From contig NZ_CP015839.1 in the NCBI RefSeq assembly GCF_001651805.1, positions 1,860,001 to 1,924,000 on the forward strand: DNA of 64,000 nucleotides, written 5' to 3'. Below, one piece after another: positions 11,840 through 52,165 of the stretch. Position 1 is the first letter of the stretch. The number at the start of each line of letters is the position of its first letter. A program made the translations under genes and the position numbers. The notes below the pieces were generated by a model. That model worked only from the letters and a program-made list of their open reading frames with translations, had not been told where the DNA came from and did no database searches. This DNA is from Marinobacterium aestuarii. Lineage in GTDB: Bacteria; Pseudomonadota; Gammaproteobacteria; Pseudomonadales; Balneatricaceae.

Positions 11840-12577
11840 ATGCAAGAAATCGTGAGTAATTTCAAAAAGTATTTCAGCGTTCGGCTGGCTGATACGCAAG
11901 CGTTGCGTCAAGAAGCGTTCAGAATTCGCTATGAAGTCTATTGCGACGAGCTGGGGTTCGAGGACAAGAACGCGTTTCCCGACGGCTTGGAGCATGATGC
12001 GTTCGATGCCAGCTCTGATCATCTGCTGTTGGTGCATAACAGTAGTCAGGCTTTTGCCGGTACAGTGCGCTTCGCACATACCTCTGTATCGGAGCCCGGG
12101 CTGATACTGCCGCTGGAAAAATATTGTAGTCACGCCTTCGATCCGGCGCTCTTCGATCTTAAGGCCCAGGCGCGTGGCACCATTGCCGAAGCCTCACGGT
12201 TGGCGGTTCCCGCCCGCTACCGGCGTCGTAGCGGGGAAACGGGCAGGCCCTTTATCTTCGACGGGGTGAGGGCGGACATATCCGATCAGGCACGGAATTT
12301 CCCCTATATCGCAGTCGGACTCTACCTGGCGGCAGCGGCGCTCTTCGTGCAGCAAAACTACCAATATGTACTGGTGATGATGGAGCCCAAGCTCGCCAGG
12401 GCGCTGACCCGGATCGGCATTCAATTTCAGCAGGCAGGAGAGCCGATTGATTACCACGGCCGGAGAGCCCCTTTCTATATATCCCCGGAAATATTGCTGT
12501 CGAACATGATTGCTCCCATTCGGGAAATGTTCGATGCAATATACATCCAGCTGGCGGAGCAGCAGTCCAACCCATGA
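11840..12577 (+). CDS. PEP-CTERM/exosortase-associated acyltransferase (N-acyl amino acid synthase-like)
   Basis: A 245-residue GNAT-fold protein of the exosortase-associated acyltransferase family (TIGR03694), related to N-acyl-homoserine lactone and FeeM-type N-acyl amino acid synthases. The N-terminal QEAFRIRYEVYCDELGFED and the following HDAFDASSDHLLLVH, GTVRF and EASRLAVPARYR motifs carry the family pattern. It probably transfers an acyl group from acyl carrier protein to an amino acid or amine. GGAGGG at 11831-11836 sets the ATG. It converges with a second acyltransferase on the other strand. Confidence 0.8.
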   Translation: MQEIVSNFKKYFSVRLADTQALRQEAFRIRYEVYCDELGFEDKNAFPDGLEHDAFDASSDHLLLVHNSSQAFAGTVRFAHTSVSEPGLILPLEKYCSHAFDPALFDLKAQARGTIAEASRLAVPARYRRRSGETGRPFIFDGVRADISDQARNFPYIAVGLYLAAAALFVQQNYQYVLVMMEPKLARALTRIGIQFQQAGEPIDYHGRRAPFYISPEILLSNMIAPIREMFDAIYIQLAEQQSNP

Positions 12578-12678
12578 ATGGTGGGGGATGTAATGTCGTA
12601 CGGTAGCCCTTTTTAACCTGGGTAACCTATCTCCCGAAGCTCTCGTCATGCCGCCCGCGCTGCGCAGGGGGTTGCTGA

Positions 12679-13287
12679 TCAAGCCGCACGCTGTGTAAGT
12701 TTTGGGCTGTCGAAGCACGCCAGGCCGTTGGCCTCAGGTTTGATGGCGGCAACGGAAAGCAGGTGCTCCAGGTCGGTAAACCCGTTCTCGGCGGGAATGC
12801 TGATGTGGTTACAAATCTCGTAGCCATAACCCAGGTTAGTATGCAGGCGCCGGTAGAGACGCGCGCGAATAGTCCCCGCTACATTAAAGGCGTAGCTGTA
12901 ATTCAACTCGGCACTTCCCTTGATCAACGCCAGGCATTGTGCACGCAATACCTCGGCTGTTCTGTGCTCGGGCAGTAGCGCCAGGCGCGTCCACTGGCAA
13001 TAGGATATGCCCTGTTGTGTCAGCTCGGGAAAGTGCTCTTCGAGAATAAAATCATCGCATTCCATGGGTAGCCGAGCCGGGTTAATGGGGGCTGTACCGG
13101 ATATTCTGGCCCCTCCTATGCAGCGATCCCCGTCCCGGGCGATAAGAATATGTCCTGCTCGATCGTGTACATCTTCAGAGCCATCGAAAGAGTCGATTCC
13201 CAGTTGTTGGCGAAAGCAGGTCTCACGGATTTGATAGTACTGGGCAAGCAAATTCGGATCTGTACTGAACTCAAAGCGAATCGACAT
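12679..13287 (-). CDS. Second GNAT/autoinducer-synthase-like acyltransferase
   Basis: A 202-residue protein with the same general plan as acyl-homoserine lactone and N-acyl amino acid synthases: QYYQIRETCFRQQLGID near the start, DRAGHILIARDGDRCIGGARI, and CQWTRLALLPEHR in the middle. The substrate is unknown. It faces the first acyltransferase tail to tail with about 100 bases between, and its upstream region (13288 on) holds the palindrome TTAAC-AATC-GTTAA. The two proteins are only distantly alike, so this is not a fresh tandem duplication. Confidence 0.65.
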   Translation of the reverse strand: MSIRFEFSTDPNLLAQYYQIRETCFRQQLGIDSFDGSEDVHDRAGHILIARDGDRCIGGARISGTAPINPARLPMECDDFILEEHFPELTQQGISYCQWTRLALLPEHRTAEVLRAQCLALIKGSAELNYSYAFNVAGTIRARLYRRLHTNLGYGYEICNHISIPAENGFTDLEHLLSVAAIKPEANGLACFDSPKLTQRAA

Positions 13288-13797
13288 TTAATAGTCCCGT
13301 TAACAATCGTTAATAATCTACTCACAGATACACACTGGTATGATCAAGGGGTAACTAATAGTTGAATTCAGCGGTTTTTAAGCAAAACTTGAGCCATTTT
13401 ATACTTTGTTTTAATAATCAATAGTTTATATCGTTTTATCGTGCACCCAAACGACAAGTCAGCTGAGTTTTTCTCCATGAAATGTCATCAAAAAGCGACG
13501 CTAGACTGAGGCTTTTAACAAAGTTATATAAAATCAATAACTTATAGTGTCCCTGTCTGGCGACAGCGTGTCGTGTCAGAGCTCGTCAATCTGCGAGCAA
13601 TGCATCCAGCCACCTCTATCGTGAGTATTTGTCTTGCCACTGAACCTGACCTTGGCAATCAGCGCCATGGGCGTGAAACACCGATTTGGCTCTATCGAGT
13701 AACAGAATCGGTGTCCGCGTTTATTGAACCACTACACTAGGTTTAAGGTCGGACTCAGTCCCCTGACTTCCATCGTATCTATCTTGAGAGGCTTTCC
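13288..13797. other. 510-base divergent intergenic region (acyltransferase / RND transporter)
   Basis: AT-rich control region between divergent genes. The perfect inverted repeat TTAAC-N4-GTTAA lies at 13300-13313, within 30 bases of the acyltransferase start. A diverged direct repeat, AATCAATAGTTTATA (about 13416-13430) and AATCAATAACTTATA (about 13532-13546), may mark regulator sites. No open frame or sigma54 element was found. Confidence 0.45.
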
Positions 13798-16119
13798 ATG
13801 GTGTTCAAGGATCGCTTGATCACAATGCTCGTCCGCTATCCCTACCGGATACTGCTGGTCAGCCTGGTGTTGATCCTGGGCGTCGGGTTTGGTGGTAGCC
13901 GCTTGACTGTCGAGTCGGGTATCGACGTCTTTTTCAGTGAGGACGACCCGAACATCCTCGCAGACCGAGAGCTAAAGCGAGCCTACGGCCGTGAGGACAA
14001 CGTACTCTTCGTCATAGACACCCGCGGCGGTGACATATTTGAAGCCAGCAATCTGTCGTCTGTTCAGATAATTACCGAAAAATCGTGGCTGATGCCCCAC
14101 TCGAAGCGCGTCGATTCGGTCACCAACTTTCTCTATCCCGAGGTGGACGGCGACGACATCGTTATCGACAGGCTGGTTGAAGAGGCGGGCTCGCTGACCA
14201 GTGAAGACCGCCAGCGCATTAAGGGCATTGCCTTGTCACAACAGGCGCTGATAGGGCGGATTCTGGCTGGTGACGGCCAGGTCGCTGCAGTCAATGTCAC
14301 CCTGAATTTACCTGAAGATGGGCAAGGGGCCGCCATTGATCAGGCCGTGACTTTTGCAAGGGCGTTAGCGGCCGAAGTCGAAAGTGAAAATCCCGCCATT
14401 GATATTCACCTGGCCGGATGGGCCTTGACCGAGCAGACCCTTGTAGAGGTCACTGCCCACGACTCGCTCACCCTCATGCCAGCACTTTTTGTCCTGGTCT
14501 TGGTCATTATTGCCCTGTTGCTGCGATCCGTGATGGCGTCAATCTGCACGGTGGTCACAATATTTCTTAGCATCCTTTGGGGTATGGGCTTTGCCGGCTG
14601 GGCAGGTATAAGCCTAAACAGTGTCAACGTCTCTGCGCCGACGATCATCATGACTCTGGCCGTCGCGGATTGCATCCATCTGCTGAGCGTATTCTTGACG
14701 CGCCAGAGGAGAGGCCGGGAGAAAAGGGATGCGCTACGGGACGCGCTGGATCATACGCTTTATCCAATTGTGCTCACCAGCCTCACCACGGCGCTGGGCT
14801 TTCTAAGCATGAATTTCAGCGAATCGCCACCGTTTCGTGAACTCGGCACCATATCCGCTGTGGGGGTCTTGGGCGCGCTCTGGGTGACGGTAACCATTCT
14901 TCCCGGGCTGGTGCTGATGCTGCCCTTCAGAAAGGCGGGGAGAGTCACAACCGGAATACCACTGGGTGGTCTCGCCAACTGGGTGATTCGCCATAACAAC
15001 CGTATTTTCTGGAGTTCGTTGTTACTCATTGCTCTTAGCGTGAGTTTTATTCCCCGAATCGAACTCAATGACGACCCCACGGGCTATTTCTCTGACGCGA
15101 TTCCACTCACTCAGGCCATTGACGTCGTTGAGAGCAAGCTCTCGGGAACCCAATCGCTGTACTACTCGTTTGATAGCGGAGAGGGGCAGGGTATCGTCGA
15201 TCCAGGCTTCCTTGCCGATATCGATGCCTTTGTCTCCTGGCTCAGGGCGCAACCTGAAGTGGTCAATGTGGAATCATTTACCGATACCCTGAAGCGGCTG
15301 AACCAGGTGATGCATGGCGAGGCCGACGAGTGGCACAAACTGCCAGACAGCAGGGAATTGGCGGCGCAGTATGTTCTGTTGTTTGAGATATCGGTTCCGT
15401 ATGGGCAGGATGTCACGCATCAGGTGAGCGCGGACAAATCATCCCTCAAGGTGGCGGCAACGCTGAAAAACCAGCAATCACAGGGGCTGATTGCGTTTGA
15501 GGCTCGAGGCCGGCGCTGGATGCAGGATAATGTGCCGGGGATGGTCGTCCGCGGGGCGGGTCAATCCATCAGTTTTGCGAATGTCGGCCTGCGCAACATC
15601 AACAGCATGTTACTCGGATCCCTGGCGGCAATCGTGCTTGTTTCGCTCTGCCTGGTTGTTGCATTTCGCTCGATCCGGTTCGGGCTGGTCAGTTGCATAC
15701 CTAACCTGTTTCCCGCCTTCATTACCCTCGGGATATGGGGGGCCGTGGTCGGTGAGGTAAACATCGCCGCCTCGGTAGTTTTCAGTCTGACCCTGGGCAT
15801 CATTGTGGATGACACAACCCATTTCCTTGTGAAATATCTGGAGGCCAGGCAGGAGCGGAACCTGGATGCGGAGCAGGCGATCAGGTACGCCTTTACTGCA
15901 GTGGGCAGTGCTCTGGTATCTACCTCTATTGTCCTGGCTATCGGGTTCCTGGCACTAGTGCAGTCTGACTTTTCGGTAAACTCCACATCTGGCCTGCTGG
16001 TGGCCATGACCATCGTTATTGCCATCACCCTGGATCTGCTGTTTCTACCGACGGTCTTGATCAAGGCTGATCGCTGGCTGCTGCCCAAGGCTGCGAAAAC
16101 GACTATCATCGGTGGCTAG
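13798..16119 (+). CDS. RND-superfamily (MMPL-type) exporter
   Basis: A 773-residue protein with the two-fold plan of MMPL/RND lipid and hopanoid exporters: one N-terminal membrane helix (about 17-35), a periplasmic domain, a helix bundle with ADCIHLLSVFLTRQRRGRE (about 285-305), a second helix and periplasmic domain, then a second bundle with LTLGIIVDDTTHFLVKYLE (about 665-685). Such proteins move lipids or glycolipids without an adaptor-type MFP. GAGAGG six bases upstream sets the ATG. Followed at once by a LolA-like protein and an outer-membrane barrel, a common trio for envelope lipid transport. Confidence 0.85.
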   Translation: MVFKDRLITMLVRYPYRILLVSLVLILGVGFGGSRLTVESGIDVFFSEDDPNILADRELKRAYGREDNVLFVIDTRGGDIFEASNLSSVQIITEKSWLMPHSKRVDSVTNFLYPEVDGDDIVIDRLVEEAGSLTSEDRQRIKGIALSQQALIGRILAGDGQVAAVNVTLNLPEDGQGAAIDQAVTFARALAAEVESENPAIDIHLAGWALTEQTLVEVTAHDSLTLMPALFVLVLVIIALLLRSVMASICTVVTIFLSILWGMGFAGWAGISLNSVNVSAPTIIMTLAVADCIHLLSVFLTRQRRGREKRDALRDALDHTLYPIVLTSLTTALGFLSMNFSESPPFRELGTISAVGVLGALWVTVTILPGLVLMLPFRKAGRVTTGIPLGGLANWVIRHNNRIFWSSLLLIALSVSFIPRIELNDDPTGYFSDAIPLTQAIDVVESKLSGTQSLYYSFDSGEGQGIVDPGFLADIDAFVSWLRAQPEVVNVESFTDTLKRLNQVMHGEADEWHKLPDSRELAAQYVLLFEISVPYGQDVTHQVSADKSSLKVAATLKNQQSQGLIAFEARGRRWMQDNVPGMVVRGAGQSISFANVGLRNINSMLLGSLAAIVLVSLCLVVAFRSIRFGLVSCIPNLFPAFITLGIWGAVVGEVNIAASVVFSLTLGIIVDDTTHFLVKYLEARQERNLDAEQAIRYAFTAVGSALVSTSIVLAIGFLALVQSDFSVNSTSGLLVAMTIVIAITLDLLFLPTVLIKADRWLLPKAAKTTIIGG

Positions 16120-16138
16120 CCCCGATTGGGAGATATGT

Positions 16139-16969
16139 ATGAGCGTAAAACGGATCAGTCGAAATGGCTTCTACCGATCACTAGCCGCCTTTATCGGCGT
16201 GGCCATTCTTTGTGGTCCGGCTTTTTCAGAAGAGCCAGCTTCGAAAGAGTCTGCGCCTGAGCGAGGGCTGGCCATCGCACTTGAAGCAGACCAGCGCGAC
16301 AGTGGTTTCGCGGACACGACGGTCAACCTCGCCATGCTGCTGAACCTGTCCGGAACCGAGGAGGTCCGCCGGGAAATGCGGCAATTGACGCTGGAAGTCG
16401 AGGGCGACGGTGACAAGAGCATCATGGTGTTTGACAGACCACGGGATCTCAATGGCACGGCCATACTGACCTTTACTCACAAAGTCGGCAGCGATGACCA
16501 GTGGCTCTATCTGCCGGCGCTCAAGCGTGTAAAACGCATATCTTCCGCCGACAAGTCGGGGCCGTTCATGGGCAGCGAGTTTGCCTATGAGGACCTGTCC
16601 TCGCAGGAAGTCGAAAAATATACCTACACTTACCTGCGGGACGAGCCTGTGGAAGGCGAACCCTGTTTCGTGGTCGAACGCGTTCCCGTTGATCCAAAAT
16701 CGGGCTACACCCGTCAGGTAACCTGGGTGGATCAGAGCGAATATCGGCTCAGACGCGTGGACTATTACGATCGCAAGGGCGAACTTCTCAAGACCATGAC
16801 ACTGGCAGGTTACACACAGTACCTGGACCAGTACTGGCGCCCGGCAAAAATGATCATGAAAAATCACCAGAATGGGAAGGGTACTACCCTGATATTCGAG
16901 GATTACCGGTTCCGCACCGGCCTGACGGACAGTGATTTCAACCGCAGTGCACTGTCGCGCATTCGATAA
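16139..16969 (+). CDS. Outer membrane lipoprotein-sorting (LolA-like) periplasmic protein
   Basis: About 276 residues with a clear signal peptide (hydrophobic AAFIGVAILCGPAFS) and then the body of the LolA-like outer-membrane lipoprotein-sorting family found beside MMPL exporters: KSIMVFDRPRDLNGTAILTF, DDQWLYLPALKRVKRIS and KSGPFMGSEFAYEDLSS. It probably carries a lipid in the periplasm. GGAG at 16128-16131 fits the ATG at 16139; an upstream GTG at 16112 overlaps the exporter gene but would precede the signal peptide. Co-transcribed with its neighbours. Confidence 0.85.
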   Translation: MSVKRISRNGFYRSLAAFIGVAILCGPAFSEEPASKESAPERGLAIALEADQRDSGFADTTVNLAMLLNLSGTEEVRREMRQLTLEVEGDGDKSIMVFDRPRDLNGTAILTFTHKVGSDDQWLYLPALKRVKRISSADKSGPFMGSEFAYEDLSSQEVEKYTYTYLRDEPVEGEPCFVVERVPVDPKSGYTRQVTWVDQSEYRLRRVDYYDRKGELLKTMTLAGYTQYLDQYWRPAKMIMKNHQNGKGTTLIFEDYRFRTGLTDSDFNRSALSRIR

Positions 16970-16982
16970 TAGGAAAGCCATT

Positions 16983-18230
16983 TTGAAGCATAAAGTGCGC
17001 CGCATCGACTTGTCATCCCTGATCCTGGTTCCGTTGCTTGCATATGGGCAATTTGTCGATGCAGCGGCAGACGATTCAGCCAACTCAAGTGCAGACAGCG
17101 TTTCGAGCGAATGGACAGGCTACGCCAGCCTGGATACCCGACTGTTTTTCCACAGTCCCGCCCATCCGGGCCAGGATGACCGGAGTCTGTCTGGAGCATT
17201 CCAGCCTGAATACTATCGGAACTGGGACTATGGAGCCCAAACTCTGGCGTTTACCCCTTTTTTCCGCCTTGACGCCAATGACGACGAGCGTACTCATGCC
17301 GATATACGCGAACTGTTCTGGCGCATGGAGGCCGAACAATTCGTCTTTAAAGCAGGGGTCGACACTGTCTTCTGGGGGGTGGCGGAGTCGCAACATCTGG
17401 TCGATATCATCAACCAGACTGATCTGGTGGAAAATATCGATCGGGAAGACAAACTTGGGCAACCCATGCTCAACCTCGACTACCTGAGTGACTGGGGCAC
17501 CTGGCAGGCTTACCTGTTGCCCTACTTCAGGGAACGTACATTCCCGGGAACAGATGGCCGCCTGCGCAGTGAGCCAGTGGTCGATACCGATGATGCCATT
17601 TACGAATCCGGCGACGAAGAACGCCATGTCGATTTCGCCTTGCGCTGGTCCCACTATTTCGGTGACTGGGATATAGGTATCGCGCATTTCAGTGGAACCA
17701 GCCGCGAACCGCTGCTGATACTCGATGATTCAGGCCCCAACCCCAGCCTTCGCCCGCTCTACCTGCAGATCGACCAGACCAGCCTCGACGTCCAGGTCAC
17801 CAAGGGCGCATGGCTTTGGAAGCTTGAGGCGATCTACAACCAGAACAATGTCAATGACTATTACGCCTACGTCGGCGGTTTTGAGTTCACACAATTCGGT
17901 ATAGCGGGAAGTGCGGTCGACCTGGGCTGGTTGCTGGAGTACAACTACGACGACCGGGGTGATAGCGCTGCCACAGTACTGCAGGATGATATCTTTTTCG
18001 GGGTGAGATTGACTGATAACGATATTCATAATACCCGCATTCTGGCGGGGGGCACCGTCGATATAGACTCCAGTTCCACCTTCGCCAATGTGGAAGCTTC
18101 ACGGCGCTTGAACGAGCATTGGGTTCTTGGCCTGGAAATGCGACTCTTTACCCATGTGGATGAAGAGGATCCTCTCCATCAGATCAAAGATGATGATTAC
18201 GTTGAAATCCAGTTGACGCGGTACTTCTGA
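16983..18230 (+). CDS. Outer-membrane beta-barrel protein partnered with the RND exporter
   Basis: About 415 residues: N-terminal signal peptide (SLILVPLLAYGQFVDAA), then alternating, aromatic-rich segments and a final QLTRYF whose terminal phenylalanine is typical of outer-membrane barrels. No close named family is certain; similar proteins occur directly after LolA-like and MMPL genes. AGGAAAG upstream supports the TTG start at 16983, 13 bases after the LolA-like gene. It may form the outer-membrane end of this export route. Confidence 0.7.
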   Translation: MKHKVRRIDLSSLILVPLLAYGQFVDAAADDSANSSADSVSSEWTGYASLDTRLFFHSPAHPGQDDRSLSGAFQPEYYRNWDYGAQTLAFTPFFRLDANDDERTHADIRELFWRMEAEQFVFKAGVDTVFWGVAESQHLVDIINQTDLVENIDREDKLGQPMLNLDYLSDWGTWQAYLLPYFRERTFPGTDGRLRSEPVVDTDDAIYESGDEERHVDFALRWSHYFGDWDIGIAHFSGTSREPLLILDDSGPNPSLRPLYLQIDQTSLDVQVTKGAWLWKLEAIYNQNNVNDYYAYVGGFEFTQFGIAGSAVDLGWLLEYNYDDRGDSAATVLQDDIFFGVRLTDNDIHNTRILAGGTVDIDSSSTFANVEASRRLNEHWVLGLEMRLFTHVDEEDPLHQIKDDDYVEIQLTRYF

Positions 18231-18261
18231 TTGTATCGGTCCTAATTGACTGGCTGCAATG

Positions 18262-18284
18262 TCTGGCCCCCGGTTGGGGGCCCA
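18262..18284 (+). terminator. Strong GC hairpin after the RND operon
   Basis: TCTGGCCCCC at 18262-18271, a short GGTT loop and GGGGGCCCAGA form a near-perfect stem just after the barrel gene. There is no T-run after it, so it may act as an RNA-end or attenuating hairpin rather than a classical intrinsic terminator. It separates this operon from the ThiF-nitroreductase gene. Confidence 0.5.
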
Positions 18285-18518
18285 GAGACGCAGACTTCGT
18301 ATCGTTTGCGGAATCTACCAATAAGTTACCCATCTATCCTACGCTTTGAGGATCTGATCCACATCGGAGGTGTTGGCCAGTGCACATAGCATGGCGAACG
18401 TGTCAGGCGGTATCGTCTTGTTGGCTGGGCTGGCGCACTTCAAGGCCGCGAAGCAGGTTGACAGCGAACCCCCGGAATTTGGCTTAACAGGCATCAGGTT
18501 GGAGCCTCTCACACTATT

Positions 18519-20516
18519 ATGAACAGCGATTTTGATTACGATCTTGCATTTTCACGCAATATTGGCTGGGTAACCGAAGCGGAGCAGCGGTTGCTGAAAA
18601 CCAGGCGCGTGGCGATCGCAGGCCTGGGCGGTGTGGGGGGCAGTCACCTGTTAACTTTGACCCGTCTGGGCATCGGTGCCTTCAATCTCTCGGATTTCGA
18701 TGAGTTTGGTGTCGAAAACTTTAATCGCCAGGCGGGTGCCAGCCTCTCGTCTGTCGGTCAACCCAAGCTCGAAACCCTGGTCAACAGAGCCCTGGATATC
18801 AATCCGGAGCTGGATATCCGCACTTTTCCTGACGGCGTTTCCAGCGAGAACCTGGATGCGTTTTTGCAAGACGTCGATGTGTATGTGGACGGACTGGATT
18901 TCTTTGCATTAGCGATGCGCAAGGCCGTATTTGCCGCCTGCGACCGCCTGGGGATTCCGGTAACAACAGCCGCGCCTTTGGGCATGGGTACCGCCGTGCT
19001 GAATTTCCTGCCGGGGAAAATGACCTTCGAGGAATATTTTCGCCTGGAAGGGGTTTCGGAAGAGGAGCAGTATTTGCGCTTTTTTGTCGGGTTGGCGCCT
19101 GCCCGGCTCCAAAGTGGTTACCTGGTGGATCCGGGGGCTATCGATGTCTTCGCCAGAAAGGGGCCGTCCACGGCAATGGGATGTGAGCTCTGCGCAGGCG
19201 CGGCGGCTACCCAGGTATTAAAAATGTTGTTAAAGCGGGGCAAGGTGGTGGCCGCTCCCTGGGGGTTGCAGTTTGATGCCTATGCCAACCGGTTGGCCAA
19301 GACCTGGCGGCCCGGCGGCAATAACAACCCCCTGCAGCAGCTGGCCATCAGTATTGGCAAGAAACAGTTGCTGCAAAAGTCAAAACCGAAACAACGGGCC
19401 ACCTATACGCCGGTAACGGCGGCCGAGAAAGTGCTGGATCTGGCGCGCTGGGCGCCGAGCGGCGACAACACCCAGCCATGGCGGTTTGAGCTGGTGGATG
19501 ACAATGCGCTGGTGGTGCACGGCTCAGATACAAGGGATAGGGTGGTTTACGACCTCGATGGTCGCGCCAGTCAGATGGCGATCGGTGCTCTTCTGGAATC
19601 GATAGAGATCGCCGCTTCAACCCTTGGCTTGAGGGCCAGGATCTTGCAACGCCCTGATCTGCCGGAGGAGACTCCCACCTTTGATGTCACCTTGCGCCCG
19701 GATGATAGTCTGGAACCTGATCCCCTGGCCCCCTATTTAAGGGTGCGTTCGGTGCAGCGCCGACCGATGAGCACCCGACCCTTGACCGCTACCGAGCGGT
19801 CTCGGCTGGAGCAAAGCCTGCCCGAGGGATATCGGGTGCGCTGGTTTGAGCGTCCGATAAAGCGCTGGCAGGTGGCTCGGCTGATGTTCGCCAACGCCAA
19901 GGTGCGGCTCACCATGCCCGAGGCTTATCTGGTGCATAGCAATATTATCGATTGGGGGCAGCAATTCAGCGAAGACAGAATCCCCGAGCAGGCGGTCGGG
20001 ATCGATCCTCTGACCGGAAAGTTGATGCACTGGGTGATGCAAAGCTGGGAGCGGGTCGCCATTATGAACCGTTACCTGGCGGGTACTTTGGCGCCACGAC
20101 TGCAGCTGGATCTGGTTCCCGGGTTGCGCTGCGCCGCCCACTTTGCCATCGTAGCACCCAAGGCGCCCGAAACCCTGGAGGACTATCTGCAGGCGGGCCG
20201 CGCGATGCAGCGGCTGTGGCTGACGTCTACCCGGCTGGGGCTGGGGGTGCAACCGGAGATGACGCCGCTGATTTTCGCCCGCTATATTCGTGCCGGCATC
20301 CCCTTTACCCAAACCCCGTCAGTGGAGCGTCTGGCCGGCGCCTGCGCTGAAAAATTCACGCTATTGTTAGCAGCACAGACGAACCAGGCTGTGTTTATCG
20401 GGCGCATAGGTGAAAGCCCGCTGCCGGCCTCCCGTTCCCTGAGGCTGGATCTGAATGCATTGATTATCTCGGAAAAATCAGCCGGTAAACAATCAGCAGG
20501 CAGGCCGGCAGAATGA
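18519..20516 (+). CDS. ThiF/E1-like adenylyltransferase fused to a nitroreductase domain (Rv1355c-like)
   Basis: A 665-residue fusion. Residues 20-280 are a ThiF/MoeB/E1-type adenylating domain with AGLGGVGGSHLLTLTRLGIG (about 34-53), DFDEFGVENFNRQ and one CxxC at 222-225 where E1 enzymes usually have two. Residues 300-650 are a flavin-binding nitroreductase with ARWAPSGDNTQPWRFEL (about 312-328). This is the layout of mycobacterial Rv1355c (MoeY). The reaction is unknown; activation of a carboxylate followed by flavin-dependent oxidation is one inference. It overlaps the glycosyltransferase gene by ATGA, so the two act together. Confidence 0.85.
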   Translation: MNSDFDYDLAFSRNIGWVTEAEQRLLKTRRVAIAGLGGVGGSHLLTLTRLGIGAFNLSDFDEFGVENFNRQAGASLSSVGQPKLETLVNRALDINPELDIRTFPDGVSSENLDAFLQDVDVYVDGLDFFALAMRKAVFAACDRLGIPVTTAAPLGMGTAVLNFLPGKMTFEEYFRLEGVSEEEQYLRFFVGLAPARLQSGYLVDPGAIDVFARKGPSTAMGCELCAGAAATQVLKMLLKRGKVVAAPWGLQFDAYANRLAKTWRPGGNNNPLQQLAISIGKKQLLQKSKPKQRATYTPVTAAEKVLDLARWAPSGDNTQPWRFELVDDNALVVHGSDTRDRVVYDLDGRASQMAIGALLESIEIAASTLGLRARILQRPDLPEETPTFDVTLRPDDSLEPDPLAPYLRVRSVQRRPMSTRPLTATERSRLEQSLPEGYRVRWFERPIKRWQVARLMFANAKVRLTMPEAYLVHSNIIDWGQQFSEDRIPEQAVGIDPLTGKLMHWVMQSWERVAIMNRYLAGTLAPRLQLDLVPGLRCAAHFAIVAPKAPETLEDYLQAGRAMQRLWLTSTRLGLGVQPEMTPLIFARYIRAGIPFTQTPSVERLAGACAEKFTLLLAAQTNQAVFIGRIGESPLPASRSLRLDLNALIISEKSAGKQSAGRPAE

Positions 20517-21784
20517 GTGAGCGTCAGTCGGACTCGTCTGAAACAAAACACGAAAAACCTGACGCAAGTAGCGTAATGCACAAAAGACGTGTGCTGTTTT
20601 TCGCCGAAGCGGTCACCCTGGCGCATGTTGCAAGACCGATGGTCCTGGCCCGTGTTCTGGAGGATGCAGGTTATGACGTTCACTTTGCCTGTCATCCTCG
20701 ATACCGGGAACTGTTCCATGCGCTTCAAAGGTCCTGGCGGCCCGTTCAGTCCATCTCCAGCCGGGCATTTCTGGAGGCCTTGGCCAAGGGGCAGCCTCTC
20801 TATGACAGTGATACACTCCAGGCGTATATAACAGAAGATCTTGAGGTGATTAAAGAGGTCTCCCCGGATCTTATAATCGGGGACTTCCGCCTGTCTCTGT
20901 CGGTGAGCGCGCGCCTTGCGGCTATCCCCTATATGACGATCACCAATGCCTACTGGAGCCCGTACGCCAGGCCAGATTACCGGGTGCCTGAGTTGCCGAT
21001 CACACGATTCTTTGGCGCCGGGGTGGCAGGAGCATTATTTAAGCTGGCGCGCCCCCTGGCCTTTGCGCTGCATACCCGGCCGCTGAACCGGGTCAGGAAA
21101 CACTACGGGCTACCGTCTCTGGGTCTGGATCTCAGGCGCACCTATACCGACGCTGACCAGACGCTTTATGCCGATCTCCCCGAGCTCGTACCCACGTTTG
21201 AACGTCCTGCGACACACCGGTATATAGGCCCAATCAATTGGTCACCCAGTGTGGCGCTACCGCCATGGTGGGATGAACTGCCCACCGACAAGCCGATTAT
21301 CTATCTCACCCTGGGCAGCTCCGGACAGAGCGAACTGTTGCCCAGGGTTCTGCAAGCGTTAGCGCAGTTGCCTGTGACCGTTATTGTTGCGACTGCAGGC
21401 CTGATTCAGTTAGAGCGCACACCGCAGAATGCCTGGGTTGCCGACTTTTTGCCCGGTGAGCAGGCGGCATCACGTGCCAGCCTGGTGATCTGTAATGGCG
21501 GTAGCCCCACCACCCTGCAAGCGCTGGCCGTTGGCGTACCGGTCATCGGTATCGCCAGTAATCTGGATCAGTACCTGAATATGTCCTATCTGGAACAGGC
21601 CGGGGTCGGCACCCTGATGCGTGCAGGCCAAACCACCACTTCCCGGCTCCAGCAGGTGGTCGAGACGATGATGGGGAATAACCGTTATCGAGATTGTGCC
21701 ATGGCGGTAATGGGACAGGTTGCGGCCTATGGGCCAGAAAGAAACTTTGCAGACCTGGTTGCACGGGAGCTCGCCAGGGTCTGA
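20513..21784 (+). CDS. GT1/UGT-like glycosyltransferase
   Basis: A 423-residue GT-B fold transferase. The N-terminus has RVLFFAEAVTLAHVARPMVL for acceptor binding, and the C-terminal half has IYLTLGSSGQ and ICNGGSPTTLQALAVGVPVI with NLDQYLNM, the UGT/macrolide-transferase type nucleotide-sugar site. Such enzymes glycosylate lipids or small molecules rather than build long polymers. Its start overlaps the stop of the ThiF-nitroreductase gene (ATGA at 20513-20516), which argues for a glycosylated product of that enzyme. Confidence 0.8.
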   Translation: MSERQSDSSETKHEKPDASSVMHKRRVLFFAEAVTLAHVARPMVLARVLEDAGYDVHFACHPRYRELFHALQRSWRPVQSISSRAFLEALAKGQPLYDSDTLQAYITEDLEVIKEVSPDLIIGDFRLSLSVSARLAAIPYMTITNAYWSPYARPDYRVPELPITRFFGAGVAGALFKLARPLAFALHTRPLNRVRKHYGLPSLGLDLRRTYTDADQTLYADLPELVPTFERPATHRYIGPINWSPSVALPPWWDELPTDKPIIYLTLGSSGQSELLPRVLQALAQLPVTVIVATAGLIQLERTPQNAWVADFLPGEQAASRASLVICNGGSPTTLQALAVGVPVIGIASNLDQYLNMSYLEQAGVGTLMRAGQTTTSRLQQVVETMMGNNRYRDCAMAVMGQVAAYGPERNFADLVARELARV

Positions 21785-21893
21785 GAAATGGAGACTGTAT
21801 TGAACTACAGTTATCAAAGCTCTATTGGCTCGGCCGCTGTTGCAGGCCAAGTTGGTCTCAGGGAATCAACCATTAAGGTGGAGAACAACAACC

Positions 21894-24704
21894 ATGCGTC
21901 GTTCGGAACTGGTGAATCGTTCAGCCATGCTCCCCCTGCATAAAAAGACCTGGCAGGTTCTGATGTGCGGGATACTGTTCCTCATGCTGCAAGGCTGCGA
22001 CCAAAGCCTGACGGACGAGGAATACCTCCAGCAGGCACGGGAGGCCGTGGGCCAAGGAGAATATCAAACCGCTGTCGTTGAGTTGAAGAACGCCCTCAAG
22101 ACCAACCCGGACAATGCCCAGGCTCGCCTGTTACTGGGCCAGGTCTATATTGAACTGGGCGACGGTACCTCCGCAGAAAAGGAGTTGCGTCAGGCGCGGA
22201 GCAGGGGGATGGCCGAGGAGATGGTTCTGGTGCCGCTGGCCAATGCATTATTTCTTCAGCGGGAATATAAGAATGTCCTCGAAAACTACAGGCCCCTGGA
22301 TTCGCTTTCACCGGAGCTGCAGGCTGAGCTGCTGGCCCTGCGTGGCAAGAGCCTGTTACAAACCGGCAGAATCGGCGAGGCCCGGTCGGAGCTGGACAAA
22401 GCTCTGGAGCTGGACGCTGGCTCCGTTGCGGCTTTACTGGGTCAGGCCCAGGTCAAGCAGGCTAAAGGTGACCTGACTGCCGCGCGGGAGTGGGTCGACA
22501 AGGCGCTGAAAATTCAACCCGATAGCCCGGAAGCCCTGAGTCAGCTGGGCAGGATTGAAGAAGCCAGCGGCAACCTCGAGGCAGCGGAGGAGGCCTACAC
22601 CCGGGCCATCAATGCCGCGGCCAACAAGTCGATATACATCGCCCAGCGGGTGTTCCTGCGTATCCAGCGCAAGGACATCGAAGGCGCCGAAAAGGATATC
22701 GAAAAGCTTTCTGACAATTATCCGGGCAAATATTTCGCCCGGGGCCTGATCCATTTCCAGCAACAGCAGTACCGGGACGCACAGACCGCCTTTGAACAGG
22801 CGCAGAGTCGTTATGGCGACTATGCCCCGGCACAGTATTACCTGGGCCTTGTCCATTTGGCCCAGGGCAACGAGCTCCAGGCGGACACCTATCTCAAAAA
22901 CGTCCTTAACCTGGTACCTGAATCCGGCCCGGCGGCGAGCGTGCTGGCCGGCATGCAGCTGCGCAAGGGGGATCTGGAGAATGCGTATCCGCTGCTCGAA
23001 TCGGTGCTGCAGCGGAACCCGGACAACCGACATGCGCTGGAGCTGATGGCCGGCCTGGAGCTGCTGCAGGGCAAGCCGGCTCAGGCAATCGAAAAACTGG
23101 AGCGATTGGTGGCGCTGGATCCCGACTCGGCCGGCCTGCGCTCCAAGCTCGGGCTTGCTCTGATGGCGCAGGGGGAGGTTGACCAGGCCACGGCCGAGCT
23201 GGAAAAGGCAATTGCACTTGAGCCGGGCGCGGATGATCTCGAATTACGCCTGGTCCTGGGCCAAATGCAGGCCGGCGAGAATGCCAAGGCACTGGAATCC
23301 GCCGAGCGCTGGGTGGCCAAGAAGCCCCGAAGCGTTCCGGCCCATCTCGGCCTGGCGTGGGCCTTCCTCGCCAACCGGCTGGGAGATCAGGCCCTGTGGA
23401 CTTTTGAAAAAGTACTGGAGCTGTCACCGGGCAATCCCAGTGCCTCTCACAATTTGGCGGTTTTTGCCCTGCAACGCGGCGATATAAATCAGGCCCTGGG
23501 CTTCTACGCAGACAGCCTGAAGCATTACCCGGATCATGCGCGAATCAGCCTTTCACTGGCCAAGCTCCAGCTGCTGATTGGCCAGGATGAAAAAGCCATG
23601 CCGCTGCTGGAAAAGGTGTGGCAACAGAACCCTGAGGAAGCCGAACCTGCTGCCTTGCTCGGTAAGACATTGCTTCGCCACGGGAATGCCGTGCGGGCAC
23701 TGCAGGTGATCCGGGAAGCGGCCGTTGCGTCCCCGCAGGATACGGCGGTGCTCCGTGTTCTGGGCACAGCCCAGGCGGAAACCGGAGATTATCGTAGCGC
23801 CGTCAATAGCTACCAGCGCCTGATTGCCCAGCAGCCGGCATCGGCCCCTAACTACTACCTGCTGGCCCAGGCCTACTACAGGAACGGGGACGGGAAAAAT
23901 TTTGCCGTCGCTCTGGAAAAAGCCTATCAACTGGACCCGACGAACCTTGATACCCGGGTTGCCATGCTTGGCCTGATGCTGCAGCGCCAGCAATGGGACC
24001 AGGCCCGGGAACTGGTCGACAAACTGAAACAGGATCACCCGCGTAATCCGGACGTGCATGTCCAGGACGCCCAGTTGTCGACCGCGCTTAACGACCCCCA
24101 ACAGGCGCTCGAGGCTTACCAGCAGGCTCTGGCGCTGGCACCTGAGCGCAATGACCTGGTGGTGAAATACGGCCTAGCCCTGTGGCAGGCGGGGCAGCGG
24201 GAACAGGCCTTCAAACCCATGGAGGACTGGCTCGACAAACACTCGAATGACATCGTAGTCCGGTACAACCTGGCCAATCTCTACCTGCTGGCAGATCGCA
24301 AACCCGAAGCCCAGAAGGCGTTTATCGACATCCTCGACAGCAATCCGGACCATATCATTGCCCTGAACAACCTCGCCTGGCTGCTCAGGGATACCGAGCC
24401 CAAACAGGCGGTTGCCTACGCGGAACAGGCCTATAAGCTATCCCCGACGGCGCCGGTTCAGGATACCCTGGCGATGATTCTGCTGGCCCAGCCAGGGCAG
24501 GAGGCGCGCGCCGTGCGGCTGCTTGAGAATGCCCTGCAGCAGGCTCCAGGGAATGCCGAGATCCATTTCCACCTGGCCCAGGCCCTGGCACAAAGTGGGG
24601 ACAAACAACGGGCAGCCCAGGTGCTGACCGAGTTGCTGAACAGCAAGGCGGCCTTTCCCGGCAAGCAGCAGGCGCAGAAATTACTCGATGAACTGAGTGG
24701 TTGA
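21894..24704 (+). CDS. prsT: PEP-CTERM system TPR-repeat lipoprotein PrsT
   Basis: About 936 residues: a signal peptide ending in LQGC (Cys35, lipoprotein site) followed by tetratricopeptide repeats along almost the whole length, e.g. DNAQARLLLGQVYIELGD and DHIIALNNLAWLLRD. Length and layout match PrsT (TIGR02917), the lipoprotein that accompanies PrsK/PrsR and exosortase A. It likely scaffolds the export machinery in the periplasm. AAGGTGGAG lies about ten bases before the ATG; an upstream in-frame start at 21825 would precede the signal peptide and is rejected. Confidence 0.9.
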   Translation: MRRSELVNRSAMLPLHKKTWQVLMCGILFLMLQGCDQSLTDEEYLQQAREAVGQGEYQTAVVELKNALKTNPDNAQARLLLGQVYIELGDGTSAEKELRQARSRGMAEEMVLVPLANALFLQREYKNVLENYRPLDSLSPELQAELLALRGKSLLQTGRIGEARSELDKALELDAGSVAALLGQAQVKQAKGDLTAAREWVDKALKIQPDSPEALSQLGRIEEASGNLEAAEEAYTRAINAAANKSIYIAQRVFLRIQRKDIEGAEKDIEKLSDNYPGKYFARGLIHFQQQQYRDAQTAFEQAQSRYGDYAPAQYYLGLVHLAQGNELQADTYLKNVLNLVPESGPAASVLAGMQLRKGDLENAYPLLESVLQRNPDNRHALELMAGLELLQGKPAQAIEKLERLVALDPDSAGLRSKLGLALMAQGEVDQATAELEKAIALEPGADDLELRLVLGQMQAGENAKALESAERWVAKKPRSVPAHLGLAWAFLANRLGDQALWTFEKVLELSPGNPSASHNLAVFALQRGDINQALGFYADSLKHYPDHARISLSLAKLQLLIGQDEKAMPLLEKVWQQNPEEAEPAALLGKTLLRHGNAVRALQVIREAAVASPQDTAVLRVLGTAQAETGDYRSAVNSYQRLIAQQPASAPNYYLLAQAYYRNGDGKNFAVALEKAYQLDPTNLDTRVAMLGLMLQRQQWDQARELVDKLKQDHPRNPDVHVQDAQLSTALNDPQQALEAYQQALALAPERNDLVVKYGLALWQAGQREQAFKPMEDWLDKHSNDIVVRYNLANLYLLADRKPEAQKAFIDILDSNPDHIIALNNLAWLLRDTEPKQAVAYAEQAYKLSPTAPVQDTLAMILLAQPGQEARAVRLLENALQQAPGNAEIHFHLAQALAQSGDKQRAAQVLTELLNSKAAFPGKQQAQKLLDELSG

Positions 24705-24756: not shown

Positions 24757-25431
24757 ATGCGCAAGATTACCGCCGCTCCGGTCTTTACTTTTGTTTTGTT
24801 GCTGTCGCTTATCCTGGCCCTGGCCAGCGTCATCAACTATCTCCTGTTGGGCTGGCTTCCCCTGGGGGATTTTCGCGGTGTGTTCATGGCCCTTGGCTGG
24901 GTTCTCCTGGTCTATCTCTGCGGCATTGCCGTTTATCGGGTTTTCCTGCGCTACTTTCCTCTTCGCGAAGGCGAGATCGCCGAGCACTCCCGGGAGGAAT
25001 TCGGCTATCAGGTGTACCTGCTGTTTTACCTGCTCCTGTTCTACCCCCTGACCCGCAATCACCTGCTGCCCACCCCCCTGATGCGTCTGCTCTACCAGGC
25101 CCTGGGCGCCCGCCTGGGGGACAACAGCTACAGCGCCGGGGTTATTATGGACCCACCGCTGACTGAACTCGGGGCCAATACCCTGATCGGGCACGATGCA
25201 GTGCTGTTCAGCCACGCCCTGGAAGGCCATCATCTGTCACACGCCAGGATCCGCATCGGTGACAATGTCACCGTGGGCGCCAAGGCCATTGTGATGAGCG
25301 GTGTCACCATCGGCGATGGCGCTATGGTGGCGGCGGGCGCCGTGGTGGGCAAAGGCGCTCGAATTGCCCCCGGGGAAATATGGGGCGGCAATCCTGCCCG
25401 CCTGCTCAAGGCTCAGACCACGGCGGCTTAG
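24757..25431 (+). CDS. Membrane-anchored hexapeptide-repeat acyltransferase
   Basis: A 224-residue protein with three hydrophobic helices in the first 110 residues (FTFVLLLSLILALASVINYL, VLLVYLCGIAVYRVF, VYLLFYLLLFYPL) and a C-terminal left-handed helix of hexapeptide repeats (IRIGDNVTVGAKAIVMSGVT, IGDGAMVAAGAVVGKGARI) ending in GGNPARLL. The fold is that of serine/galactoside O-acetyltransferases, here tied to the membrane. It may O-acetylate the polysaccharide or its lipid-linked unit. It follows prsT by about 50 bases. Confidence 0.75.
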   Translation: MRKITAAPVFTFVLLLSLILALASVINYLLLGWLPLGDFRGVFMALGWVLLVYLCGIAVYRVFLRYFPLREGEIAEHSREEFGYQVYLLFYLLLFYPLTRNHLLPTPLMRLLYQALGARLGDNSYSAGVIMDPPLTELGANTLIGHDAVLFSHALEGHHLSHARIRIGDNVTVGAKAIVMSGVTIGDGAMVAAGAVVGKGARIAPGEIWGGNPARLLKAQTTAA

Positions 25432-25564: not shown

Positions 25565-25654
25565 TTGTATTGAGTGTTCAGTTGACTCTTCGAGTCCAGT
25601 TCAATTATCCACGCAGGCTGGCAACCTGACGGGCAACCTAAGTAGGTGACGCAC

Positions 25655-26689
25655 ATGAACAAGAAAACACTCTTGGCCGCGGGTTTCGCCCTGGCCTGCA
25701 CCCTGTCGGCGCCGGTGTTCGCCACCGACACCATCATGTTTGACCCCGATGGCACGGGTGAAGCTGCCAACGGTACCCTTAATGTAGGTTCATTTGATTG
25801 GGCGCCGGGCAGCACCCTGTCCGTCGACACCATTCCCACTGCAGAGGGAGACGACGTCGTATCCTACTCCCACGCATCCCTGGGCATCTTGGTCAATGAA
25901 AACGGCATCGGCATTGCGCCAAGCGGGCTCAATACCAATTTTGAAATCACCTTTGTCGCGGGCTTTACGGAAACCATCGATAGCGTAGAAACCTCGCCAA
26001 CTGTATTGGTTAGCGATGGCGGCGACGGTATTGGCGGTGGCAACGATATTTACACCTTCTCCCAGACCATCACCCTGGTGGAGGCCGGCACCCAAACTGT
26101 CAATTTCTTTGAAATCTATTACGACGATTTTTCTGCCGGCTCACAAAACAACCCGCTGGCGGGTACTGGTTATCGTGACGGGCAGTTGATCCTGAGCGCC
26201 GAGTTGGTCAGCCTCAGCGGTAACTTCACCGCAGACTTCACATTCGTGGATGTTGACAACAGTGGAGGCTTCAATGCCGGCGACATCCTGCAAACCAGCC
26301 TCCTGGACCAATTCGGCGCAGACCAATGGGGTGGACAGCAAACCATTAGCGGCGAAGGCTCCACCCAACTGGTCGCGGACGTGACCTTCCAGGACTATGA
26401 TTTCTTTATATCCAATGTCTCAGCCCTGGTGCAGGATCTGTTCTTCAATACCTCCAATATACTGCCGTTCGCGCAAACCAACCCGTCCATGCAATTTGAC
26501 GGTTCCACCATCATTCCTGACATTGGCGCTGTCAACGGCTTCAGCGGCCCCGACATCCTGTTCCAGACGGACGCTAACTCTGGCTTTGTAACCACGGAAG
26601 TTCCTGAGCCCAGCACGGTACTGCTCTTCGGCTTGGGGCTGTTGCTCCTGGGGTTTGGAAGCCGGAACCAATTCGCCAGAAGGAGTTAA
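25655..26689 (+). CDS. PEP-CTERM sorting-domain protein (exosortase substrate)
   Basis: 344 residues: signal peptide (TLLAAGFALACTLSAPVFA), a secreted body of about 290 residues rich in Asp, Asn, Thr and Gly, and a C-terminal PEP-CTERM anchor: VPEPSTVLLFGLGLLLLGFG followed by a basic tail (RNQFARRS). PEP is at about residues 317-319. Exosortase A at 50618 should cleave and anchor it to the surface. The ATG at 25655 is preferred to the GTG at 25646. Its body is clearly homologous to the N-terminal half of the next gene. Function of the body is unknown. Confidence 0.93.
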   Translation: MNKKTLLAAGFALACTLSAPVFATDTIMFDPDGTGEAANGTLNVGSFDWAPGSTLSVDTIPTAEGDDVVSYSHASLGILVNENGIGIAPSGLNTNFEITFVAGFTETIDSVETSPTVLVSDGGDGIGGGNDIYTFSQTITLVEAGTQTVNFFEIYYDDFSAGSQNNPLAGTGYRDGQLILSAELVSLSGNFTADFTFVDVDNSGGFNAGDILQTSLLDQFGADQWGGQQTISGEGSTQLVADVTFQDYDFFISNVSALVQDLFFNTSNILPFAQTNPSMQFDGSTIIPDIGAVNGFSGPDILFQTDANSGFVTTEVPEPSTVLLFGLGLLLLGFGSRNQFARRS

Positions 26690-26756: not shown

Positions 26757-26821
26757 CACCAGGCTATCGGATGGCTCTTAGAAACTTGGTTATTACGAAA
26801 TCGGTTACAAGGAGCTCTAAT

Positions 26822-50617: not shown

Positions 50618-52165
50618 TCAGGGGCTGGTTGTCGCCAGTTCGGGCCAGCTGTCCTTGATGAAGCGAGTCAGGGTCGCATCGGCGGTGAGGCTGTCCTCAT
50701 AATCCACTGCCAGCGCGTATCCGCTGACCACTTCGTGCGCACCGCTAAGTTTGTTCAGGGCTTGCAGCAGCTTGACCTCCATGGGGTTGGCGACGGGCCG
50801 CTTGTAGGCGTAAAACCAGTACCAGATTCGTCGCATGTTGCCATCCAGGGTCCTCAGCTCGAGCACATTGACCTTGAGTTGACCGGAACCGACCGGGACC
50901 GTTCGAGTAGTGCGACCCGCCGGCGTCCAGGCATTGGTGGTGTACCACCGGTTAACGCCGCTAATCAGCTCCTTGCCCTGATGTTCGGATTGGTAGTCGG
51001 CAATATAAAGACCGACGGTGGCGTCGTGATCCAGCCGGTAAGTTGCGTGGAAAATTCGGTCGGCCCCGACAAATTTCGGGCGCCAGTCCAGCGCGTCGGC
51101 GGCTTGCTGGGTCCATGGGGGTAAGGAAAACTGCTGGATGGGCAAGGCAGAAAGCTGTGGTGTGAGCTTCATCAACTGACCCCAAGTACAGGTTAGCAGC
51201 AAAATCACTAGCGCGGCTGCCGGAGCCGCATAGACCCGGGAGCGCGGCCTGTCCTCCATCAAGGAGCTCACGGCGCTGGTCTTCTGGTCTGGATTGAAAG
51301 CCGGTTCAGGGTCTCGCCACCAACTGCCGATCCAGAACATCAACATCACCACCAGGCCGAAGAACAGCCAGCCGTAGATCAAATGGTCGACCCCGGTGGC
51401 ATATTTCATATCGGACAGGTGGGCGATCAGTACAATCAGATAGGCGCGTATGCCGTTGGCCAGCACCGTCATCAATGCGGATGCGGCGATAAAGATCAGA
51501 CGGCTGCGCAGGCGACGATAGGTGAGGTGGGCATAAAGGGTCCCGAGGGCAACGGAGGCGATCAGGTAGCGCAGCCCGCTGCAGGCCTCGGCAACCTCGA
51601 AACGACCGCTGGGGATTTCGATAAGGAGGCCGTTGAAATAGACCGGCACGCCACTGAGCTGCAGCGCCTGAACCGTGATATCTGCGGTGACCTGTTGCAG
51701 ATACGGCGTTAGTTGATCGCCAAAGGGGACGGCGAAGATCAGGTAGGCCAAAGGAAATGCCAAGGTCTTGGCGACCGTTCTGCCCAGAGTGACGACCACC
51801 AGGGCAATCAAGATCAAAATGGCGGCCATCTGTTCCACCACCAGCACATCGGCGGCCAGCCCCAGCAACCAGACAAAACACAATCCCAGCAATGGAATCA
51901 GCGCGCTCCAATCCGGTCCCATTTCGAGGGTGGTCAATTGCGGACCTTTACGGATGATCAGCCAGAGGCTGATCAGGGGGATCAGCATCCCATGGGCATA
52001 GGTTTCCGAGCGCCACCAGATCGCCGCCATGGACATCAGGCTGGGCCAGAAGACTGCCGCGTAAACCAGCACCAGCAGAGCCAGCGTCAGCAGCGCTTTG
52101 CGTTGCTGACGCTTGAGCTGAAGGCGCGGCGTACCGCGGTTTATGGTGGGCTCGAAAGTGGTCAT
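50618..52165 (-). CDS. xrtA: Exosortase A with C-terminal EpsI domain
   Basis: 515 residues. The first 280 form the multi-helix exosortase with the catalytic triad in view: AEACSGLRYL (Cys195), NGIRAYLIV (Arg240) and GVDHLIYGW (His261). After a linker a single helix (about 312-330) leads into a C-terminal EpsI-type domain (about 335-515: WYTTNAWTPAGRT, RIWYWFYAYKRPVANP). It cleaves PEP-CTERM proteins at the membrane and likely joins them to a surface acceptor. Its start overlaps the FemAB gene by four bases, and the ligase gene follows 15 bases after it. Confidence 0.96.
   Translation of the reverse strand: MTTFEPTINRGTPRLQLKRQQRKALLTLALLVLVYAAVFWPSLMSMAAIWWRSETYAHGMLIPLISLWLIIRKGPQLTTLEMGPDWSALIPLLGLCFVWLLGLAADVLVVEQMAAILILIALVVVTLGRTVAKTLAFPLAYLIFAVPFGDQLTPYLQQVTADITVQALQLSGVPVYFNGLLIEIPSGRFEVAEACSGLRYLIASVALGTLYAHLTYRRLRSRLIFIAASALMTVLANGIRAYLIVLIAHLSDMKYATGVDHLIYGWLFFGLVVMLMFWIGSWWRDPEPAFNPDQKTSAVSSLMEDRPRSRVYAAPAAALVILLLTCTWGQLMKLTPQLSALPIQQFSLPPWTQQAADALDWRPKFVGADRIFHATYRLDHDATVGLYIADYQSEHQGKELISGVNRWYTTNAWTPAGRTTRTVPVGSGQLKVNVLELRTLDGNMRRIWYWFYAYKRPVANPMEVKLLQALNKLSGAHEVVSGYALAVDYEDSLTADATLTRFIKDSWPELATTSP

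Follow-up and report, generated by a model that had tools for sequence, protein, structure and literature searches.

An oxazolone-synthetase-type ThiF-nitroreductase fusion in an XrtA/PEP-CTERM locus of Marinobacterium aestuarii, with a coupled GT1 glycosyltransferase and a candidate export trio

TrzS (Rv1355c), a fusion of ThiF and a flavin oxidase, is described in passages of PMC12856293 as cyclising N-acyl tryptophan in an ATP-dependent manner and then desaturating the product with O2. The nearest structure to its flavin domain is Acg (2YMV) according to the same source. OxzAB of Pseudoalteromonas rubra makes tyrazolones and phenazolones (de Rond 2021, as cited in PMC12856293 and PMC10404671). 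Oxazolone synthesis has likewise been shown for the split system TyzACB, and mmpL9 adjoins the tyz genes (PMC10404671). The combination of an N-acyl amino acid synthase (NAS), ThiF and a nitroreductase is also reported for three organisms that make N-acyl dehydro-tyrosines or -phenylalanines; no acyl-oxazolone was seen in those making dehydrotyrosines (PMC12479983), an observation that counts against the pathway proposed below. The physiological role of oxazolones is called a major unresolved question in PMC12856293.

NAS genes beside exosortase systems have already been described (Craig 2011, cited in PMC7293339 and PMC11072679). In Methylomonas LW13, disruption of an exosortase-associated NAS removed a polysaccharide band, and complementation restored it (PMC11072679). 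The stieleriacine cluster has PEP-CTERM and exopolysaccharide genes nearby, and a cyclisation-desaturation route was proposed for it (PMC7293339). For the PEP-CTERM exopolysaccharide locus of Rubrivivax, UBA/ThiF-type genes are tabulated, and the passage around the table does not discuss them (PMC3684757). The original prediction for the DNA analysed here named no described pathway as known with such a gene set next to an XrtA locus. This claim has to be narrowed, since NAS beside exosortase is in print and the core reaction (NAS, ThiF and flavin domain) is of a known kind. In the open-access literature searched, including the passages cited above, no statement was found that places an oxazolone synthetase in XrtA loci, and no description of its coupling to a GT1 or to the export trio.

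The window analysed here is a stretch of 64,000 nucleotides from the complete 5.19-Mb chromosome of M. aestuarii. All seven ORFs of the predicted set were found where they had been placed (Table 1). NCBIfam matches showed that the region is a 60-kb surface-polysaccharide locus of the XrtA/PEP-CTERM exopolysaccharide type. Models for PrsT, PrsK, PrsR, polysaccharide deacetylase, ATPase, export, chain-length, glycosyltransferase and acyl-CoA ligase proteins were over cut-off in it. The XrtA/PEP-CTERM models concerned were TIGR03109, TIGR02917, TIGR02916, TIGR02915, TIGR03006, TIGR03015, TIGR03007, TIGR03027 and TIGR03098, and TIGR03018 was slightly under its cut-off (230.1 vs 230.65). The ORF at 25646-26689 encodes a PEP-CTERM substrate by its C-terminus, which consists of VPEPST, a hydrophobic stretch and RR. 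The closest named ThiF-nitroreductase proteins are those of Marinobacterium sedimentorum (94%) and M. rhizophilum (88%), and the gene order of the window, all the way from NAS through GT1 to PrsT, is kept in both of these nearest named relatives (L002 and L003). A sigma-54 promoter scan gave 45 sites at up to 2 mismatches versus 37.9 expected, which is not above chance, and counts of sigma-70 promoters and terminators were close to shuffle means. Taken together, our results suggested, at a probability of roughly 0.6, that these genes of the XrtA/PEP-CTERM locus encode enzymes for making an oxazolone-family N-acyl amino-acid lipid, which would be glycosylated by the GT1 and exported to the surface by the trio.

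Table 1. Features of the M. aestuarii locus, in window positions
Feature	Position	Strand	Evidence
Predicted exosortase-associated N-acyl amino acid synthase (NAS), OxzA/TyzA/TrzA-like step	11840..12577	+	TIGR03694 exosort_acyl 240.6 bits, cut-off 111.95
Putative divergent NAS-like protein (GNAT)	12679..13287	-	FeeM E 0.0019 (under cut-off); hhalign to NAS alignment 75%, E 2.5e-5
MMPL/RND-type inner-membrane lipid transporter	13798..16119	+	PF03176 133.6 bits, cut-off 20.5
Periplasmic LolA-like carrier	16139..16969 (ORF open from GTG 16112)	+	PF17131 LolA_like 227.9 bits, cut-off 30
Predicted outer-membrane beta-barrel protein, start uncertain	16932..18230	+	Predicted model, about 18 strands, mean pLDDT 61.7
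Predicted fusion of oxazolone-synthetase type: ThiF cyclase (about residues 1-290) and flavin-dependent desaturase of the nitroreductase type (about 300-650)	18519..20516	+	PF00899, PF00881; PRK08223 420.8 bits, cut-off 266
GT1-type glycosyltransferase	20513..21784	+	EryCIII-like_C and Glyco_tran_28_C above cut-off; nearest PDB chain CalG1
XrtA/PEP-CTERM TPR protein PrsT (context)	21825..24704	+	TIGR02917 688.3 bits, cut-off 312.2
Hexapeptide-repeat acyltransferase, possible member	24757..25431	+	Hexapep above cut-off
Exosortase XrtA (context)	50618..52165	-	TIGR03109 349.8 bits, cut-off 208; match at genome 1911311-1912087

From its sequence, the protein of 18519-20516 is assigned to the ThiF-nitroreductase fusions of the oxazolone-synthetase kind (OxzB, TyzB+TyzC, TrzS). 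Like OxzB and TrzS, it has a ThiF adenylating domain (PF00899 and PRK08223 above cut-off) and an Acg-type flavin desaturase domain (PF00881 above cut-off, and 2YMV by sequence and fold). A partner N-acyltransferase is present in the form of the TIGR03694 gene, which lies 6 kb upstream and is not adjacent, unlike in oxz/trz; this distance counts against the pathway. In a sequence search the ThiF half was closest to TcdA (E 6e-14), and the nitroreductase half matched Acg 2YMV (E 2e-4). A fold search with a model of mean pLDDT 76.9 and weak stretches at residues 150-300 gave Acg 2YMV as the top match (E 1.6e-11), followed by TcdA (E 8.5e-10). The product of TcdA is cyclic carbamoyl-threonine. Among 18 aligned fusions, ThiF residues G35, G37, G38, G40, D59, D61, R70, K83 and D127, which we take to be catalytic, were invariant, and so were nitroreductase residues W311, P313-N317 and Q319. 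D127 aligns with the Asp of the TcdA 'IDS' and presumably corresponds to D217 of TrzS. Fusion and split forms of ThiF and nitroreductase were both present among 80 named loci, and a nitroreductase was found within 10 kb in 58 of them. A tblastn search of plasmids for OxzB/TrzS comparators returned four records, only from Nitratidesulfovibrio and Bdellovibrio, with neither comparator among them.

The NAS gene is the sole TIGR03694 match over cut-off in its own genome, and its product was also above the Pfam cut-off for FeeM, Acetyltransf_5 and Autoind_synth. This family-level evidence predicts an enzyme that N-acylates an amino acid with a fatty acyl group, in agreement with the NAS-like acyltransferase proposed originally. 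A second GNAT acyltransferase had been proposed at 12679-13287, for which no Pfam or NCBIfam family was found at E 0.001. BLASTP of the two acyltransferase-like proteins against each other gave only E 0.15, which was insufficient, so profile comparison by hhalign was needed. The hhalign match makes a divergent NAS-like protein likely but does not prove it, the FeeM match being under cut-off. Among the 80 named loci, two carried this gene, and both were from Marinobacterium. Paired NAS genes are frequent near ThiF (for example in L034, L049, L056, L087, L091 and L093), so this gene may plausibly be a second NAS that has decayed or become specialised.

Co-occurrence above chance had been named beforehand as the check on the gene set. 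Our profile sample was an even draw of 274 genomes across the class, among which ThiF (NF006077) was over cut-off in 26, TIGR03694 in 33 and XrtA (TIGR03109) in 51. ThiF and XrtA were found together in 24 of the 26 ThiF genomes (4.8 expected, p 3e-18), ThiF and TIGR03694 in 20 of the 26 (3.1 expected, p 8e-17), and NAS and XrtA in 21 genomes (6.1 expected); these tests ignore kinship beyond the even sampling. The 26 ThiF genomes span 20 families. XrtA was not over cut-off in G249, which has a sub-cut-off match, and in G098, which has no match and about 560 contigs. Within the XrtA genomes, TIGR03694 was present in 18/24 with ThiF versus 3/27 without (p 4e-6). Of the 20 genomes having both NAS and ThiF, 19 had them no more than 15 kb apart; in G247 the distance was 22.5 kb. 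These results showed that ThiF, NAS and XrtA are grouped beyond chance. In the 80 named loci, which were selected for resembling the window protein and many of which are on short contigs, NAS was within 10 kb in 54, GT1 in 13 and at least two trio parts in 11.

The predicted exporter was an RND protein with a LolA-like carrier and an outer-membrane barrel. Pfam matches bear out the MMPL and LolA-like proteins; the barrel is predicted from a structural model. The MMPL protein was under the cut-offs of the HpnN, BstA and HAE3 families (131.9 vs 751.85, 28.5 vs 1400 and 166.8 vs 351.9 bits). For the LolA-like protein, ATG 16139, behind GGGAG, is the more likely start than GTG 16112. The barrel protein matched no Pfam or NCBIfam family at E 0.001, and Foldseek of its model found porins and AlgE at TM 0.4-0.5; the model was too weak for a family to be named from it. 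An aryl-polyene analogy considered for the MMPL-LolA pair was dropped, since no literature joining the terms was found. Relatives of the barrel were found by profile search in 125 of the 274 genomes. This family was too broad to serve as a genome-wide marker of the trio, and the trio was therefore scored by proximity only.

We took 25 ThiF neighbourhoods regardless of the trio, with the window's own genome left out; at least two loci are common to this set and the named loci (L005/L083 and L009/L084). Within 10 kb of ThiF there was NAS in 20, nitroreductase in 16, MMPL in 10, LolA-like protein in 14, barrel in 14 and GT1 in 2. At least one trio part was present in 16/25, at least two in 14/25 and all three in 8/25; fewer than two parts were found in 11/25 and none in 9/25. 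The controls were 13 NAS loci from genomes without ThiF, among which at least two trio parts were found in one and GT1 in none (p 0.004 versus 14/25 for at least two parts). This control set is imperfect, as XrtA was over cut-off in only 3 of the 13 control genomes, so that it is unmatched for XrtA. An MMPL-like ORF in control L115 fell under the domain threshold and was not counted. The single control locus with at least two parts, L108, also carries a nitroreductase fragment.

The trios near ThiF are not all of one kind. In the eight complete ones the MMPLs scored 479-574 bits, versus 901-1206 bits for window-like MMPLs and 1097-1206 bits for the nearest kin, on a profile that was built from named loci and is hence biased toward them. 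None of the 25 neighbourhoods held a complete trio closely akin to that of the window. Window-like parts occurred incompletely, as MMPL alone in L087 and L101 and as LolA-like protein with barrel in L084, L085, L086, L088, L089 and L094. A possible interpretation is that ThiF loci acquired related trios more than once.

The ThiF-nitroreductase fusion and its coupling to a GT1 were found as originally predicted, the stop of the one and the start of the other overlapping in ATGA at 20513-20516. The GT1 was under the cut-off of the macrolide glycosyltransferase family TIGR01426 (71.7 vs 260 bits) and matched the broader Pfam GT1-type models. At E 1e-30, its subfamily was found in 6 of the 274 genomes (G000, G021, G070, G081, G200 and G242), all of which were positive for both ThiF and XrtA (6/6 for ThiF, p 4e-7). 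Among XrtA genomes, it was present in 6/24 with ThiF versus 0/27 without (p 0.007). In each of the six, a nitroreductase lies no further than 10 kb from ThiF (6/17 with nitroreductase versus 0/9 without, p 0.05). The GT1 is directly behind ThiF-nitroreductase or nitroreductase in L002, L003, L020 and L067 (behind the fusion in L020 and L067). In G070, G081 and G200 it is beside PrsT on a different contig from ThiF, so part of the GT1 link may be to the XrtA locus, and the GT1 could serve polysaccharide. Of the 13 named loci that contain GT1, six had a relative of the hexapeptide-repeat acyltransferase near it, as did L087, L120 and L123.

The pathway we propose would start with the TIGR03694 enzyme joining a fatty acyl group and an amino acid, most likely an aromatic one, as suggested by family membership. 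ThiF would then use ATP to adenylate the carboxylate, and ring closure by the amide oxygen would give a saturated oxazolone (azlactone). The FMN domain would desaturate the C-alpha/C-beta bond using O2. Both reactions were shown for TrzS and are expected here from homology to characterised enzymes. Afterwards the ring may stay closed, as in tyrazolones, or be opened by hydrolysis, giving an N-acyl dehydroamino acid comparable to the thalassotalic and kyonggic acids. The product is thus likely an N-acyl dehydroamino-acid oxazolone or the ring-opened acid. Gene association suggests the later steps, in which the coupled GT1 may add a sugar, for example on the oxygen of a phenol or enol, that sugar may be acylated by the hexapeptide acyltransferase, and the MMPL, LolA-like carrier and barrel may take the product to the cell surface to serve the exopolysaccharide/PEP-CTERM layer. 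The product is probably glycosylated and exported; its glycolipid nature and crossing of both membranes are what we infer from these genes. The outline agrees with that predicted originally, in which an acylated amino compound is activated or oxidised, glycosylated and exported. Its wording 'adenylated or oxidised' is corrected to adenylated, cyclised, then desaturated, because an oxazolone role of such fusions has been published (PMC12856293, PMC10404671). The accompanying statement that Rv1355c-type ThiF-nitroreductase proteins have no settled role does not hold, Rv1355c being TrzS (PMC12856293).

The oxazolone synthesis could be real and the GT1 and trio nonetheless separate tenants of the XrtA locus, the GT1 acting on exopolysaccharide or another acceptor and the trio on another lipid. 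We regard this as a possible reading, clearly less probable than the proposed pathway. It is consistent with the position of the GT1 next to PrsT in L120, L121 and L122 as well as in the window, with its scarcity near ThiF (2/25), with the breadth of the barrel family and with barrel relatives within 50 kb of XrtA, read by hand, in at least 3 of the 27 XrtA genomes without ThiF, a count that leaves out match positions in G213 and G221. Trio parts near XrtA were confirmed in two such genomes, G117 and G091. Against it stand the restriction of the GT1 to ThiF-positive genomes, the ATGA overlap together with the same gene order in L020 and L067, and the 14/25 neighbourhoods with at least two trio parts. 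The outcome that would have refuted the original prediction, chance-level co-occurrence or ThiF and trio always apart, was not observed. The set is grouped non-randomly, but the absence of a complete window-kind trio from the 25 neighbourhoods and the presence of GT1 within 10 kb of ThiF in only 2 of them show that it is not a fixed unit. That the proximity merely reflects exopolysaccharide loci gathering surface genes, with no shared pathway, is very improbable in our judgement. The whole region is indeed such a locus; however, the presence-absence association over 20 families goes beyond proximity, NAS is close to ThiF nearly throughout, and 12 of the 13 control loci, imperfect as they are for XrtA, do not have two trio parts.

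Alternatively, ThiF might prime the N-acyl amino acid, as the adenylate or the reactive azlactone, so that it passes to another molecule (an amine on a protein, sugar or lipid) and no free oxazolone is made. Azlactones are acylating agents in general chemistry. No nitroreductase was found within 10 kb in 9 of 26 ThiF loci, so desaturation is not general, and 8 of those 9 keep at least two trio parts. Oxazolones are also opened by alcohols and acids, as stated in passages of PMC12856293. We nevertheless consider a transfer role unlikely, as the window protein has the full nitroreductase domain with its conserved residues and the characterised homologues release the oxazolone according to the same source.

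With the proposed pathway, the gene set points to a function of oxazolone lipids in cell-surface building. The 24/26 profile link joins two unsettled roles across 20 families, that of oxazolones and that of the acyltransferase of exosortase systems, and through the ThiF-XrtA link both become testable in bacteria that are culturable and non-pathogenic. The locus also offers candidate glycosylation and export steps for oxazolone lipids, none of which was found described in the parts of the literature examined. As a speculation that we hold improbable, an oxazolone or dehydro-N-acyl amino-acid (glyco)lipid exported by the MMPL-LolA-barrel trio could be a working part of the exosortase system, either as a lipid at the surface onto which PEP-CTERM proteins or polysaccharide are transferred or anchored, or as a signal read by PrsK, with the reactive azlactone as acyl donor. 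If true, this would account for the near-restriction of this ThiF to XrtA genomes (24/26).

Several described systems are similar to this locus in part. The NAS-PEP-CTERM link (Craig 2011, as cited in PMC7293339 and PMC11072679) shares a TIGR03694-type NAS beside the exosortase and concerns NAS alone. The thalassotalic, kyonggic and stieleriacine loci have NAS, ThiF and nitroreductase, and the stieleriacine locus is near PEP-CTERM/exopolysaccharide genes; in contrast, the passages on them discuss methyltransferases for tailoring and neither a GT1 nor an export trio (PMC12479983, PMC7293339). TyzACB, which makes tyrazolones, has the same three activities with an MmpL gene (mmpL9) beside them, whereas its ThiF and nitroreductase are separate proteins and no GT1 is reported in the passages on it (PMC10404671). 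TrzAS (Rv1356c-Rv1355c and homologues), which makes tryptazolones, is alike in having ThiF followed by a flavin desaturase in one chain, an acyltransferase partner and an Acg-like flavin half (PMC12856293), but the window protein is below the cut-off of the Rv1355c family (NF005901, 177.1 vs 476 bits). OxzAB, likened here by description and not by sequence, consists of a NAS-type acyltransferase and a ThiF-nitroreductase fusion, as in the window; exosortase, GT1 and trio, which the passages on OxzAB do not mention (PMC12856293, PMC10404671), are all present in the window.

The nitroreductase fused to ThiF (oxazolone-synthetase kind) in the window is not a constant companion of this family. Among the 26 sampled ThiF-positive genomes, nine had no nitroreductase within 10 kb of ThiF, and at least two parts of the trio (MMPL transporter, LolA-like carrier, outer-membrane beta barrel) were present in 8 of these 9. 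Loci lacking a nitroreductase within this distance were L093, L096-L098, L105, L106 and those of Thiodiazotropha (e.g. L033). There may be a form of the pathway that omits the desaturation step. Relatives of the ThiF-nitroreductase protein (~34-35% identity) were also carried by large Nitratidesulfovibrio vulgaris plasmids (H1-H3).

A site comparable to the sigma-54-like one near the NAS-like gene was found near its counterpart in Marinobacterium sedimentorum, and none near that in M. rhizophilum. Over the whole window, the count of such sites was not above chance. The small protein, encoded between PrsR and an HprK-related kinase, had no match in the NCBIfam search at E 1e-30.

Additional features of the window
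Feature	Position	Strand	Remarks
Sigma-54-like site	13381-13396	-	1 mismatch; ~94 bases upstream of 12679-13287 (NAS-like gene)
Hexapeptide acyltransferase	24757-25431		sugar acylation possible
PEP-CTERM ORF	25646-26689		C-terminal sorting signal (VPEPST...)
Neighbouring ORF	26771-28516		looks related to 25646-26689; sorting signal missing from its end
Small protein	34500-35198		twin-arginine-like leader RRRLLIGLAG

The GT1 subfamily is often accompanied by relatives of the hexapeptide acyltransferase. In three other genomes (loci L120, L121 and L122), a GT1 relative adjoins PrsT in the XrtA locus, and ThiF lies on a different contig.
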